From Actinomycetota bacterium (GTDB lineage Bacteria; Actinomycetota; Thermoleophilia; Gaiellales; Gaiellaceae), in assembly GCA_947445525.1 (NCBI GenBank), contig CANFDS010000006.1, positions 1 through 60,939 on the forward strand: a stretch of 60,939 nt of DNA, given 5' to 3'. The translations under genes were made by a program, and so were the position numbers. Every line of letters starts with the position of its first letter. The first letter of the stretch is position 1. Positions 20,285 through 25,709 of this stretch are shown here, piece after piece. A model generated the notes under the pieces. The model was not told where the DNA came from. It made no database searches and saw nothing but the letters and a program-made list of their open reading frames with translations.

Positions 20285-21447
20285 CGGGCTGCCTCCACGT
20301 ATGAGCGGATGAGGTCGTGATCCTTGATGCCGGGAGCGCTCTCCAGGCTGCGTGCGGCGTCCACCGCCCACGGGTGGACTGCGGCGATCGCGGCGCGCAC
20401 GTTGTCGGGGCCGAGGCCGCCGGCGAGGACGATGCGCTCGCTGCGAGCCGCTCCGGCCGCTGCCTCCCAGTGGCCGGGGTCGCTGCCCTCCCAGGGCAGG
20501 TCGAGCACGCGGGCGACGGGGGCGCCGCGGCGCAGCAGCGTCGCCTCGCGGCCGCGTACGGTGCCTTCCGCACGCCCGTGCACCTGGTCGAGATCGGCCG
20601 CCGAGTCGCCTGCCTCGCCCACCCATACCGCGACCGAGAGCACGCCCTCGGGGGTGGGGAGGACGCCGGCGGCGCGGCGCGGGCTGCCCTCGGCGAGTAC
20701 GAAGCCGAGCAGGTCGGCGCCGGCCTCGACGGCGGCGGCGACATCATCCTCGCGCGTCAGCCCGCACACCTTCACCAGCGGCCTCGACAGCAGCTCTCGC
20801 AGTTTCACGTCCGGGTCGGGCGCCTGCATCAGTGCGGTGCCGCAGAGGATCGCGTCGGCGCCGACGATCTCGGCCGCCGCGCCCTGTGCACGGGTATGCA
20901 CGCCGCTCTCGGCGATCAGCACCCGGCCGTCGGCGGGCACCGAGGCGAGCAGCTCCAGCTGCGTCCCACGGTCGAGCGCGAAGGTCGTCAGGTCGCGGCA
21001 GTTGATGCCGAACGGGTCGGCGCCGAGCCGGACGCCGCGTGCCACCTCGGCGGCGTCGTGCGCCTCCACCAGCGCGTCGAGCCCGAGCGAGCGGGCGAAC
21101 GCCTGCAGGTGCGCCGTCTGCGCGTCGTCGAGGTCGCGCAGCAGCAGCAGGATGGCGTCGGCGCCGGCGTCCTTCAGCTCGCGGATCTGCTCCTCCGAGG
21201 TGAAGAAGCCCTTGCCCAGCAGCGGCGCGTCAGTGGCAGCCCGGGCCGCACGCAGGTCGGCGATCGTGCCGTCGAAGCGGGCGTCGACGAGCACCGAGAT
21301 CGCGGCGGCGCCAGCCGCGGCGAAGCGCGCTGCCAGCTCGGCCGGATCGGCACCGGGGCGCAGCGCGCCCATCGACGGCGAGCGCCGCTTCACCTCGGCG
21401 ATGGCCTGCAGGCCCGGGCGGGCGAGTGCGTCACGGAACCGTCCCAC
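20281..21447 (-). CDS. trpCF: Bifunctional indole-3-glycerol phosphate synthase / phosphoribosylanthranilate isomerase
   Basis: 388 residues holding two TIM barrels. Residues 1-220 are the synthase ([12 protein letters not shown] with the catalytic Lys, [21 protein letters not shown]). Residues about 221-388 are the isomerase ([20 protein letters not shown] with catalytic Cys, [27 protein letters not shown] with catalytic Asp). The start GTG 21447 has AGGAGGT 8 nt upstream and overlaps the trpD stop by one base. The synthase starts directly at beta strand 1; the usual 40-45 residue N-terminal extension that helps bind substrate is missing. Fusion of these domains is known in enterobacteria but the arrangement here looks independent. 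Confidence 0.95.
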
Positions 21448-22558
21448 TAGCTGGTGACCTCCTGTCGAGAGAACGCGGTGAGCGCAGCGAGCCGCTCTGC
21501 GGCAGCGCCCGAGTCGAGAGTCGCGCCGGCGAGCGCGAGCCCCTCGCGCAGATCGTCGGCGTGGCCGGCTGCGGTGAGCGCCGCTGCCGCGTTGAGCACG
21601 ATCGCAGCGCGCTTGCCGCCGCGCAGCTCGCCGGCGAACACGCGGCGGATCGTCTCGGCGTTCGCTGCGGCGTCGCCACCCACCAGCTCGCCGGGCAAGC
21701 AGCGGGGCACGCCCAGGTCGAGCGGGTCGATCACCAGCTCGCGCACCGCGCCGTCTCGCACCTCGCACACGAGGTTGGGGCCGGTGGGGGAGAGCTCGTC
21801 GATGCCGTCGGCGCCGTGCACGACGTAGGCGCGGTGTGCGCCCAGCGAGGCGAGCACGTCGGCGATCGTGCGCACCAGCCGGTCCTCGTACACGCCAACG
21901 ACCTGGGCGCGCGCGCCGGCCGGGTTCGTCAGCGGGCCGAGCACGTTGAAGACGGTGCGGGTGGCGAGCTCGCGGCGCACCGGGCCGGCGTGGCGCATCG
22001 CCGGGTGGTAGCTCGGTGCGAAGAGAAAGCCGAAGCCGAGCGCGTCGATCGACGCCGCCACGCGCTCGGCCGGCAGTTCCAGGTGGAAGCCGAGCGCCTC
22101 CAGCACGTCGGCCGACCCGGATGCCGACGAGACGGCGCGATTGCCGTGCTTGGCCACGCCCGCGCCGGCGGCGGCGGCGAGCAGCGCGGCTGCCGTGGAG
22201 ATGTTGAACGTGCGGGCGCCGTCGCCGCCGGTGCCGGCCGTGTCCACCAGGTCGGTGCGGACGGGGCGCACGGGCAGTGCGTGCTCGCGCATCGCCTCGG
22301 CGCAGCCGCAGATCTCCTCGGCCGTCTCACCCTTCATGCGCAGCCCGATCAGCAGCCCGCCGACCTGCCCCGGCGTCGCCTCGCCGGCCATGATCGCGCC
22401 CATCGCGGCACGCGCCTCGGCACGGGTCAGGTCGTCGCCGCCGACGACGCGGGAGATCGCGCGCTGGATGGCCGCCGAGTGCGCGGGCGGAGCGGGCGCT
22501 CCGGACGGCGGCTGCTGCCCGGGCGGCACCGGCGGGCCGGGCGGCGGCGCGGCGGAGG

Positions 22559-22562
<4 letters not shown>
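21447..22562 (-). CDS. trpD: Anthranilate phosphoribosyltransferase
   Basis: 371 residues; GTG 22562 overlaps the trpG stop (GTGA). The phosphoribosyl diphosphate loop LVDTAGTGGDGARTFNIST, KHGNRAVSSASGSADVLEALG and VFNVLGPLTNPAGA identify the enzyme, which transfers PRPP ribose to anthranilate. A Pro-rich segment of about 25 residues precedes the first helix and looks like a linker, as if the gene descends from a TrpG-TrpD fusion or would tolerate one. Pathway order continues to trpCF. Confidence 0.96.
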
Positions 22563-23127
<565 letters not shown>

Positions 23128-23131
<4 letters not shown>

Positions 23132-24357
23132 CGGATCTCCGTCTCGGCGAGGTCGATCGCGCGCTCGATCGCGGCGAGCTTGTTGAGGCACTCCAGGTGC
23201 TCGGCGGTCGGGTCGGAGTCGGCGACGAGGCCGCCGCCGGCCTGCAGGTGGGCGACGCCGTCGTGCAGCAGCATCGTCCGCAGCGCGATGCAGGTGTCGA
23301 GGCCGACGCCGGGGATGTGGTACCCGACGACGCCGGCGTAGAAGCCGCGCCGGAAGCCCTCCAGCTCGGAGATGATCTGCATCGCCCGCACCTTCGGCGC
23401 GCCCGAGACGGTGCCGGCGGGGAAGGTCGCGCGCAGCAAGTCCCAGGCGGTGAAGCCGTCGCGGATCTCGCCTGCCACCTCCGAGACGAGGTGCGTGACG
23501 TGCGAGAACCGCTCCACCTGGAGGAAGCGCTCGACGTGCACGGTGCCCGGCTTGCACACGCGCGAGAGGTCGTTGCGACCGAGGTCGACGAGCATGACGT
23601 GCTCGGCGCGATCCTTCTCGGAGGTGAGCAGCCGCTCGGCGTCGCCGTCGCCGACCGGCGTCGTGCCGGCGATCGGGTTGAGGCTGGCGCGTGTGCCTTC
23701 GAGCTTGACATGCGTCTCGGGAGACGAGCCGATCAGCGCCATCCCCTCGAGCTCGAGCAGGAAGAGGTACGGCGACGGGTTGACGCGGCGCAGCGCCCGG
23801 TAGATCGCCAGCGCGTTCGCCGACGTCGGCCGCTCGGCGCGCTGGGAGAGCACGATCTGGAACGCGTCGCCGGCGCGGATGTACTCCTTGCAGCGCAGCA
23901 CGCCGGCCTCGTGCTCGGCCTGCGACGGCGTGCGCCGGATCGGGCCCGACGGGTACCCGGACGCTCCCGACGGCGCCGCCACCGGCGCGTCGAGCAGCGC
24001 CGCGATCTGGTCGGCGTCGCCGCGCCGCACCTCGGCCACCCCGCGCACGTGGTCGAAGCGGACGAGTTGGTCGGCCACCACGAACTGGCTCTCCGGCAGC
24101 CCGCGCCCCGGCCCGGGCAGCGGCACCGTCGGCTCGAGCTGCGCGATCCAGTCGTAGCCGACGTGGCCGACCACCGGCTCGTTGCAGCGCTCGGCCTCGG
24201 CGAGGTCGACCACGCGCGTGCCGCTGCCGATCAGCGAGTAGCGGCCGAGGCGGCCCTGGTCGACCGATTCCAGCAGGAACGAGGCGCGGCCAGGCCCGCG
24301 CAGGCGCAGGTACGCGCCGAGCGGGGTGACGAGGTCTGTGGGGATGAGTGTGTGCAT
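23128..24357 (-). CDS. trpE: Anthranilate synthase component I
   Basis: 409 residues from ATG 24357. The N-terminal domain includes FLLESVDQGRLGRYSLIGSG, the LLES element in which TrpE enzymes bind tryptophan for feedback inhibition. The chorismate-binding domain has YIRAGDAFQIVLSQRAERP, LNPIAGTTPVGDGDAERLL, VERFSHVTHLVSEVAGEI and AGGGLVADSDPTAEHLECLNKL. It converts chorismate and TrpG-derived ammonia to anthranilate, the committed step. It is about 100 residues shorter than E. coli TrpE. It follows the trpL leader peptide on the same transcript; a 7-bp hairpin ends 8 nt before the start. Confidence 0.95.
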
Positions 24358-24365
24358 GGGCAGAG

Positions 24366-24387
24366 AGACCCGGCGTGCGTCGGGTCT
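24366..24387 (-). promoter_or_regulatory. Attenuator-like hairpin between trpL and trpE
   Basis: On the transcript AGACCCG pairs with CGGGTCT (7 bp, 8-nt loop), immediately upstream of the trpE ATG. Upstream, GGGAGC in the trpL coding region can pair with GCTCCC directly before this hairpin, and GCCTGA/TCAGGC forms a hairpin over the trpL stop, so mutually exclusive structures are possible. There is no U-tract, so control could act on trpE translation rather than by intrinsic termination. Confidence 0.55.
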
Positions 24388-24418
24388 GGGAGCGGGCGGG
24401 CTGTTCGGCCTGAGCGGG

Positions 24419-24487
24419 TCAGGCACGGCTCCCGCCGCGCTCGCTGCGCCACGACCAGGCCCAGGAGGTGCGGGAGACGGGAGTCAC
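24419..24487 (-). CDS. trpL: trp operon leader peptide (22 residues, WAWSW)
   Basis: GTG 24487 to TGA 24419 encodes MTPVSRTSWAWSWRSERGGS plus RA. Three Trp in five residues just upstream of trpE mark a transcription- or translation-attenuation leader. Ribosome stalling at the Trp codons when charged tRNA-Trp is scarce would change pairing of the downstream RNA. The GTG lies 7 nt after the -10 box, so the leader is probably translated from a leaderless mRNA. The peptide is too short for routine gene callers. Confidence 0.85.
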   Translation of the reverse strand: MTPVSRTSWAWSWRSERGGSRA

Positions 24488-24494
24488 GTCCACA

Positions 24495-24524
24495 AGGGTA
24501 CGGGAACGCCCGCAGGCACGTCAA
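24495..24524 (-). promoter_or_regulatory. trp operon promoter TTGACG-18 nt-TACCCT
   Basis: On the minus strand -35 TTGACG (24524-24519) and -10 TACCCT (24500-24495) are separated by 18 nt. Transcription should begin about 7 nt downstream, at or next to the trpL GTG at 24487. The -35 region abuts the divergent thiolase promoter. Confidence 0.8.
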
Positions 24525-24557: not shown

Positions 24558-25709
24558 ATGAGCCACTCCGTGATCGTCAGCGCCGTCCGCACCCCCTTCG
24601 GCAAGCTCGGGGGCGGGCTCGCCCGCCAGAGCGCCACGCAGCTCGGGGCGATCGCGATCCGCGCGGCGCTCGAGCGTACCGGCGTCGAGCCGGCCGCCGT
24701 CGAGTACGTAGTGATGGGGCAGGTGCTTCAGGGCGGGGCGGGGCAGGCGCCCGGGCGGCAGGCGGCGATCGGCGCCGGGATCCCCCGGGAGACCCCCGCC
24801 GACACCGTCAACAAGGTGTGCGCGTCCAGCATGCGGGCGATCCAGATTGCCGACCTGATGATCCGCGCCGGCGAGCACGACGTGGTCGTCGCGGGCGGCA
24901 TGGAGTCGATGTCGAACGCGCCGTACCTCCTCGACCGCGCCCGCTTCGGCTACCGCCTGGGCGACGGCAAGCTCGTCGACCTGATGGTGCACGACGGCCT
25001 CACCTCCACTTTCGACGGCAGGCACATGGTCGAGCAGGCGGCGCTGGTCTGCCGCGAGCTCGGCATCACGCGGGAGGAGCAGGATGCCTGGGCGTCGCGC
25101 TCTCACGCCCGCGCTGTGCGCGCCGCCGCTGCCGGCGTCTTCGCCGAGGAGATCGTCGCGGTTGGCGAGCTCGAGGCCGACGAGGGGCCGCGGGCCGACA
25201 CCACCGCCGAGTCGCTCGCTGCGCTGAAGCCGGTGATCGACCGCGAGGGCACGATCACCGCTGGCAACGCGCCCGGCGTCAACGACGGGGCCTCGGCCCT
25301 CGTCGTCACCAGCGAGGCGTTCGCGCGCCGCCACGGGCTGACGGTGCTCGCCACCATCATCGGGCAGGCGTGCGTCGCCGGGGAGTTCGCGAACCTGCCG
25401 GAGGCGCCCGCCGGGGCCGGTCTCAAGGCGCTGGCGCGGGCCGGCAGGACGATCGCCGATGTGCGGCGCATCGAGATCAACGAGGCCTTCTCGGCCGTCG
25501 CGGTGCACTCGACGCGGCTGCTCGGCGCCGACCCGGACCTGGTGAACGTCAACGGCGGCGCGGTCGCGCTCGGCCACCCGATCGGCGCGTCCGGCGGACG
25601 CATCGTCGGCACCCTCATCCACGAGCTGCGCCGGCAGGGCGGCGGGCTCGGGCTCGCCGCGATCTGCTCGGGTGGCGGGCACGGCGACGCGCTGCTGCTG
25701 GAGGTCTAG
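24558..25709 (+). CDS. Acetyl-CoA C-acetyltransferase (thiolase)
   Basis: 383 residues, close to the 390-residue norm. Catalytic Cys88 sits in NKVCASSMRAIQIADLMI; EINEAFSAVAV, NGGAVALGHPIGASGGRIV (catalytic His) and the C-terminal CSGGGHGDALLLEV (second Cys) are complete. It makes or cleaves acetoacetyl-CoA or 3-ketoacyl-CoA, and fits with the acyl-CoA dehydrogenase, enoyl-CoA hydratase and ETF genes in this window as parts of beta-oxidation or short-chain acid metabolism. GGGHGD in place of the usual GGGMG is a small deviation. Confidence 0.93.
   Translation: MSHSVIVSAVRTPFGKLGGGLARQSATQLGAIAIRAALERTGVEPAAVEYVVMGQVLQGGAGQAPGRQAAIGAGIPRETPADTVNKVCASSMRAIQIADLMIRAGEHDVVVAGGMESMSNAPYLLDRARFGYRLGDGKLVDLMVHDGLTSTFDGRHMVEQAALVCRELGITREEQDAWASRSHARAVRAAAAGVFAEEIVAVGELEADEGPRADTTAESLAALKPVIDREGTITAGNAPGVNDGASALVVTSEAFARRHGLTVLATIIGQACVAGEFANLPEAPAGAGLKALARAGRTIADVRRIEINEAFSAVAVHSTRLLGADPDLVNVNGGAVALGHPIGASGGRIVGTLIHELRRQGGGLGLAAICSGGGHGDALLLEV

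Follow-up and report, generated by a model that had tools for sequence, protein, structure and literature searches.

The window, by which we mean the whole stretch of 60,939 nucleotides analysed here, belongs to a draft genome of 2.43 Mb in 171 contigs and carries on its minus strand a trpEGD operon, in which a short leader is followed by trpE, trpG and trpD. The trpE gene (23128–24357, minus strand) encodes component I of anthranilate synthase and matches NCBIfam TIGR00564 with an E-value of 1.4e-123 and 413 bits, under the equivalog cut-off of 517.7. The genes encoding the glutamine amidotransferase TrpG (22559–23125, minus strand; TIGR00566) and the anthranilate phosphoribosyltransferase TrpD (21447–22496, minus strand; TIGR01245) match their models above cut-off; both starts are approximate, the TIGR00566 match beginning at residue 147 of the open frame. 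The ATG of trpE lies at 24357, 8 nt past the last hairpin of the leader region. A GTG at 24426, in the trpE frame and overlapping the leader stop codon, was rejected as the trpE start because it would put the terminator within the gene. The plus strand has a divergently oriented gene for acetyl-CoA acetyltransferase with its start at 24558, so that the predicted attenuator unit occupies the whole divergent intergenic region. At the edge of the window, positions 1–57 of the plus strand hold the 3' portion of a truncated tRNA gene. When the window and 15 relative loci were compared with Rfam 15, only tRNAs reached the gathering threshold.

The promoter consists of a −35 box TTGACG (24519–24524, minus strand) and a −10 box TACCCT (24495–24500, minus strand) separated by 18 nt. 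Seven nucleotides past the latter lies the GTG (24487–24485) of a predicted leaderless open reading frame of 22 codons (24419–24487, minus strand), which encodes MTPVSRTSWAWSWRSERGGSRA and ends with a TGA at 24421–24419. An automated promoter and terminator scan of the window returned no match, its consensus being too strict for the promoter and the tail found here. The leader contains three tryptophan codons within TGG GCC TGG TCG TGG (24449–24463, minus strand), at 24463–24461, 24457–24455 and 24451–24449. The first is placed 21 nt upstream of the segment hereafter called strand 2 (15–21 nt across the family) and the last 9 nt upstream of it, a distance that is the same in alignments A1 and A2. 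Another in-frame GTG, at 24493, was discarded as the leader start, since it lies 2 nt past the −10 box and should escape transcription. The position of the promoter suggests a transcription start on or beside the GTG at 24487, in which case the leader transcript would be leaderless.

We then compared 55 distinct relatives with a readable trpE upstream region; these are named Thermoleophilia, Gaiella or Candidatus Gaiellasilicea, hence the label Gaiellales-type used below. A Trp-rich short open reading frame, preceded by a TTGAC/TTGC-type −35 box and a TANNNT −10 box with the start codon 6–10 nt downstream, is present in 49 of the 55 regions. The −35 box lies at 16–18 nt spacing in most relatives and is not recognisable in three of the 49 leader-bearing regions. 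When the start codon was picked without regard to the promoter, TANNNT still ended 6–10 nt upstream of it in 45 of the 49 (7–8 nt in 32). Such a unit was found in only 3 of 2000 shuffled regions. The 49 relatives also share a covarying helix and an intrinsic terminator, both described below. The peptide family has the consensus M-T-x-x-x-x-x-W-(W)-A-W-R-x-E-R-G-G-S. Synonymous sites of the codons forming strand 2 are fixed as GGG (45/47) and AGC (44/47), indicating that the RNA is under selection and not the peptide alone. The distance from the leader stop codon to the terminator is tightly held (27–40 nt, sd 3.2) and that from the terminator to trpE is loose (8–63 nt, sd 15). The Trp leader with hairpins ahead of trpE, which the initial annotation had described from the window, is thus conserved across an order, and the leaderless transcription it had predicted gains support from the order-wide conservation of the −10-to-start spacing. 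Its remark that a leaderless leader is unusual does not hold, as TrpL1, TrpL2, LeuL, IlvL and others of Streptomyces lividans TK24 are leaderless (PMC8079986) and leaderless genes abound in mycobacteria (PMC4633059).

Some trpE genes have no such element. At locus L037, the trpE gene is directly preceded by 100 nt (near 1740–1840) with a promoter-like TTGCGC and sequence similar to locus L041; a leader is missing, as though a deletion had removed the entire attenuator. Genome G034 has a trpE without leader (L092) and a trpS that retains a leader with terminator (L146), and the trpE upstream region of Candidatus Gaiellasilicea maunaloa (L010) is likewise free of the element. Two additional families of this order also have Trp leaders whose parts follow one another in the same sequence. 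The members of another family (L164, L166–L174, L176) have a divergent leader, for example MRTIPNGAWWWCMPGRDPVR, and most of them carry a CACCCT-type box 6–7 nt before the ATG.

From the trpE leaders we built a covariance model with 74 positions. At E ≤ 0.01 it had matches in 78 of the 129 genomes searched within the order, a count to be read as a lower bound since the model overlooks the divergent family represented by L164–L176. It gave no convincing match in a sample of the class outside the order; the matches L158–L160 (outside the order) and L155 (G045) lie within or next to unrelated sequence and are probably fortuitous. In several genera the same model also recovered leader copies ahead of trpS, most of which lack a terminator. 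Ten of these (L143–L145, L147–L153) combine a putatively leaderless Trp leader and conserved strands 2 and 3 and have neither a terminator hairpin nor a U-tract. Masking of a Shine-Dalgarno sequence was considered for the terminator-less copies and rejected, as its accessibility is the same in both states in most of them. A terminator is present in the trpS leader L146 and in three compact, putatively leaderless trpS leaders, L180, L184 and L205 (MTTRFRTSWWWCPER, MNSRNNSSWWWQTER and MTTPRTYWWWRSER), which also have a U-tract. In the genome of the window, trpS (L195, contig C63) has no leader peptide and is preceded by TATCCT about 10 nt before its ATG, so this gene itself appears to be leaderless.

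Three segments of the leader RNA can be named by their order. Strand 1 (24471–24483, minus strand) precedes the Trp codons and contains CTCCCG twice, complementary to the CGGGAG of strand 2. Its duplex with strand 2 is stronger than in shuffled sequences (z averages −1.6 and is below −1.65 in 49% of sequences), which lends weak to moderate support to a possible 1:2 pairing. Strand 2, GAGCGcGGCGGG (24431–24442, minus strand), lies within the leader reading frame and pairs with strand 3, CCCGCC-CGCTC (24390–24400, minus strand), around a hairpin that holds the leader stop codon (24406–24427, minus strand) and is found in folds of the window and of its relatives. In the family this helix 2:3 is made of GAGCGnnGCGGG, within the leader reading frame, and CCCGnnCGCTC, after its stop. 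Across 46 sequences, 92.2% of the cells are paired and six pairs are changed on both sides; none of 500 shuffles was as good and slid-register controls reached only 34–59% pairing. In L051, L108 and L112 strands 2 and 3 are replaced in a coordinated manner. The folding energy of the window leader alone is unremarkable (z −0.59), so that the evidence for the element is comparative. Helix 2:3 has the properties of a conserved antiterminator-type helix, one strand of which would be uncovered when a ribosome stalls at the Trp codons.

Two nucleotides past strand 3, the window contains a terminator-type hairpin (24366–24387, minus strand), AGACCCG-acgcacgc-CGGGTCT, followed by the tail CTCTGCCC, without a U-run, and by the ATG of trpE. 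The relatives all have a terminator hairpin, GC-rich and with a U-tract, at the same place, typically AGACCTTCC-agcc-GGAGGGTCTTTTT; at L005 the automatic scan chose a different hairpin, and GACCC/GGGTC with a U-run is visible. The window tail has three T in 9 nt, the lowest count of 48 (median 7), and every relative with a scored terminator tail has more U. This includes the sister locus L003, with 98% TrpE identity, whose tail TTTTCTCGT has six T in nine. The hairpin ends 8 nt before the start codon in the window versus 19 nt in the sister, the window having lost about 11 nt, and its energy (−11.2 kcal/mol) is weaker than the median of −13.25. Because the relatives have U-tracts, the ancestral hairpin is best read as a transcription terminator, and the terminator of the window looks decayed. 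The possible U-less attenuator of the initial annotation is accurate for the tail of the window, which truly has no U-run, and does not extend to the type of element: the U-less state is derived and specific to the window. At L026, L031, L036, L038 and L044, the 3' arm of the terminator contains an AGGAG-type Shine-Dalgarno sequence 8 nt before the trpE ATG and could mask translation too.

The geometry of helix 2:3 and the terminator is unusual for an attenuator. In classical attenuators the antiterminator uses the 5' arm of the terminator. Here, helix 2:3 and the last hairpin fold together in the stalled state, in the window as in the relatives, and no strand shared by antiterminator and terminator was found; the two helices are compatible, with partial overlap at the terminator base in 20 of the 47 scored loci only. 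Neither strand 1, strand 2 nor the stop-codon region pairs with the terminator 5' arm beyond shuffled controls, and strand 2, strand 3 and the stop-codon region show no pairing with the 3' arm clearly beyond them; a slight excess (3:T3, −7.4 versus −6.5 kcal/mol shuffled; mid:T3, −7.6 versus −7.3) was not counted. The alternative hairpins first proposed up to trpE are therefore alternative only in part: helix 2:3 and the last hairpin can coexist. At each of the 47 scored loci, helix 2:3 ends close to the foot of the terminator, at a distance of −6 to +5 nt (20 overlapping, 10 at zero, 17 positive). In several members of the divergent family, helix 2:3 takes the GGGC of the terminator base, and in these the stalled-state fold loses that base. 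That the two helices are otherwise compatible counts against the attenuator reading: there is no classical strand exclusion, and antitermination would have to be steric.

Taken together, these results make it likely that the trpEGD operon is controlled by a ribosome-mediated trp attenuator, in which stalling within WAWSW would let helix 2:3 block the adjoining terminator, and that its U-tract has decayed in the window. The attenuation reading is well supported by comparison, among other points because the leader stop-to-terminator spacing is tight whereas that from terminator to trpE is loose, and because a model built from trpE leaders also finds copies at trpS, the one further gene for which a response to Trp-tRNA would be expected. 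The switch itself could work as follows. Transcription would begin on or beside the GTG, and translation would be initiated by a 70S ribosome directly at the free 5' end. Under a shortage of charged tRNA-Trp, this ribosome would stall in WAWSW and leave strand 2 free to pair with strand 3 around the stop-codon hairpin, giving a helix that ends at the terminator foot. This helix would take or abut the last base pairs of the terminator, and, as a second helix would not fit the exit channel of RNA polymerase, the foot could not close. With plentiful tryptophan, the ribosome would reach the stop codon and cover strand 2, which strand 1 may also hold; strand 3 would then stay open and the terminator would form and stop RNA polymerase. 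In the window copy, decay of the U-tract would probably make termination weak and regulation partly relaxed.

Other explanations must be weighed against this attenuator. That the leader is a chance open reading frame with Trp codons can be dismissed: high G+C sequence does offer many open frames, but conservation at 49 of 55 loci against the rarity of the unit in shuffled regions has already refuted it. The initial annotation considered translational control of trpE likely: the U-less hairpin would block trpE translation at high tryptophan and open upon stalling in the leader. In the window, the short distance of 8 nt from hairpin to ATG and the missing U-run would suit such a role, as would the AGGAG-type Shine-Dalgarno sequence in the terminator 3' arm of L026, L036 and L044 (scored) and, with the same sequence, of L031 and L038. 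Yet the sister and the other relatives have U-tracts, the hairpin-to-trpE distance varies across the family, and stalling would leave the hairpin closed, since helix 2:3 folds together with it and does not compete by pairing. Moreover, no Shine-Dalgarno that could be masked precedes trpE in the window (a 5/6 match precedes only 10 of 47 trpE starts). We thus regard translational control as improbable, contrary to the earlier suggestion.

Two further readings concern the window copy and helix 2:3. The window may carry a dead or constitutive attenuator, in which loss of the U-tract and a short deletion before trpE lead to permanent read-through, or, in the trivial version, a consensus error of the metagenome-assembled genome mimics this state. 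The U count, lowest of all, and the sister, with TTTTCTCGTT and about 11 nt more between hairpin and start codon, would both fit; on the other side, the window has kept an intact leader peptide and intact strands 2 and 3, and intrinsic terminators with poor U-tracts can function in actinobacteria. A dead copy is a minor though real prospect; more probably, the window has a transcription attenuator whose terminator has decayed. Helix 2:3 might also act apart from the neighbouring terminator, for example by loading Rho, by altering RNA stability or by acting directly on RNA polymerase, the terminator being an add-on. The trpS leaders that keep the peptide and helix 2:3 without terminator or U-tract favour this view; they count against the attenuator reading and imply that the helix has at least one use not involving a terminator. 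All terminator-bearing leaders nevertheless keep the terminator 0–5 nt from the helix or overlapping it, which a mere add-on would not need, and Shine-Dalgarno masking at the terminator-less copies is not supported. We consider such an independent role rather unlikely as the main explanation. Tentatively, we propose as one possibility an order-wide class of attenuators in Thermoleophilia, in which a ribosome-controlled helix would block termination sterically at the terminator foot and not via the 5' arm, and would be reused at trpS without a terminator.

With these observations, the probable range of ribosome-mediated trp attenuation comes to include a large group of soil and water actinobacteria, most of them uncultured, for which no earlier description was found in the literature searched. 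They suggest that leaderless translation is the fixed entry mode of the sensor in the Gaiellales-type group. About fifty natural variants are now at hand of a putative antiterminator whose contact with the terminator is confined to the base of the latter. Should abutting prove to be the mechanism, the position of a hairpin alone could control intrinsic termination. The window copy would be a natural case of U-tract decay within an otherwise intact attenuator.

The trp attenuator of Escherichia coli, with its 1:2, 2:3 and 3:4 pairings, resembles the element in the order of parts, in the Trp codons just before strand 2 and in strand 1 as alternative partner; its first Trp codon is also close to 21 nt from strand 2. 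In E. coli, strand 3 is the 5' arm of the terminator and the leader peptide is preceded by a 5' UTR and a Shine-Dalgarno sequence, whereas here strand 3 is not that arm, strand 2 lies within the leader reading frame, and neither a 5' UTR nor a Shine-Dalgarno is predicted before the peptide. In Streptomyces and Corynebacterium, antiterminator and terminator share complementary triples gGCC-rGCy-GGCC (PMC1262725); no such sharing was found here, where the terminator is AGACC/GGTCT or similar and helix 2:3 is GAGCGnnGCGGG/CCCGnnCGCTC. The short leader peptides without obvious terminator upstream of Mycobacterium cys genes recall the trpS copies, but the amino acid differs and the RNA is not homologous (PMC1262725). 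The entry mode has a counterpart in mycobacteria, where an RTG at +1 suffices for leaderless initiation (PMC4633059). A helix abutting the terminator foot as antiterminator was not found described in the literature searched, which included few subscription journals. A close relation is with S. lividans, which has leaderless TrpL1 (MFAHSTRNWWWTAHPAAH, upstream of trpE) and TrpL2 (upstream of trpS), the latter without a U-rich tail (PMC8079986). A Trp leader, leaderless there and predicted to be so here, hairpins, Trp target genes, and one gene copy with and one without a U-rich tail are common to both groups; the peptide and RNA sequences differ. The kind of switch is known; its lineage and geometry are, as far as the literature was searched, new.
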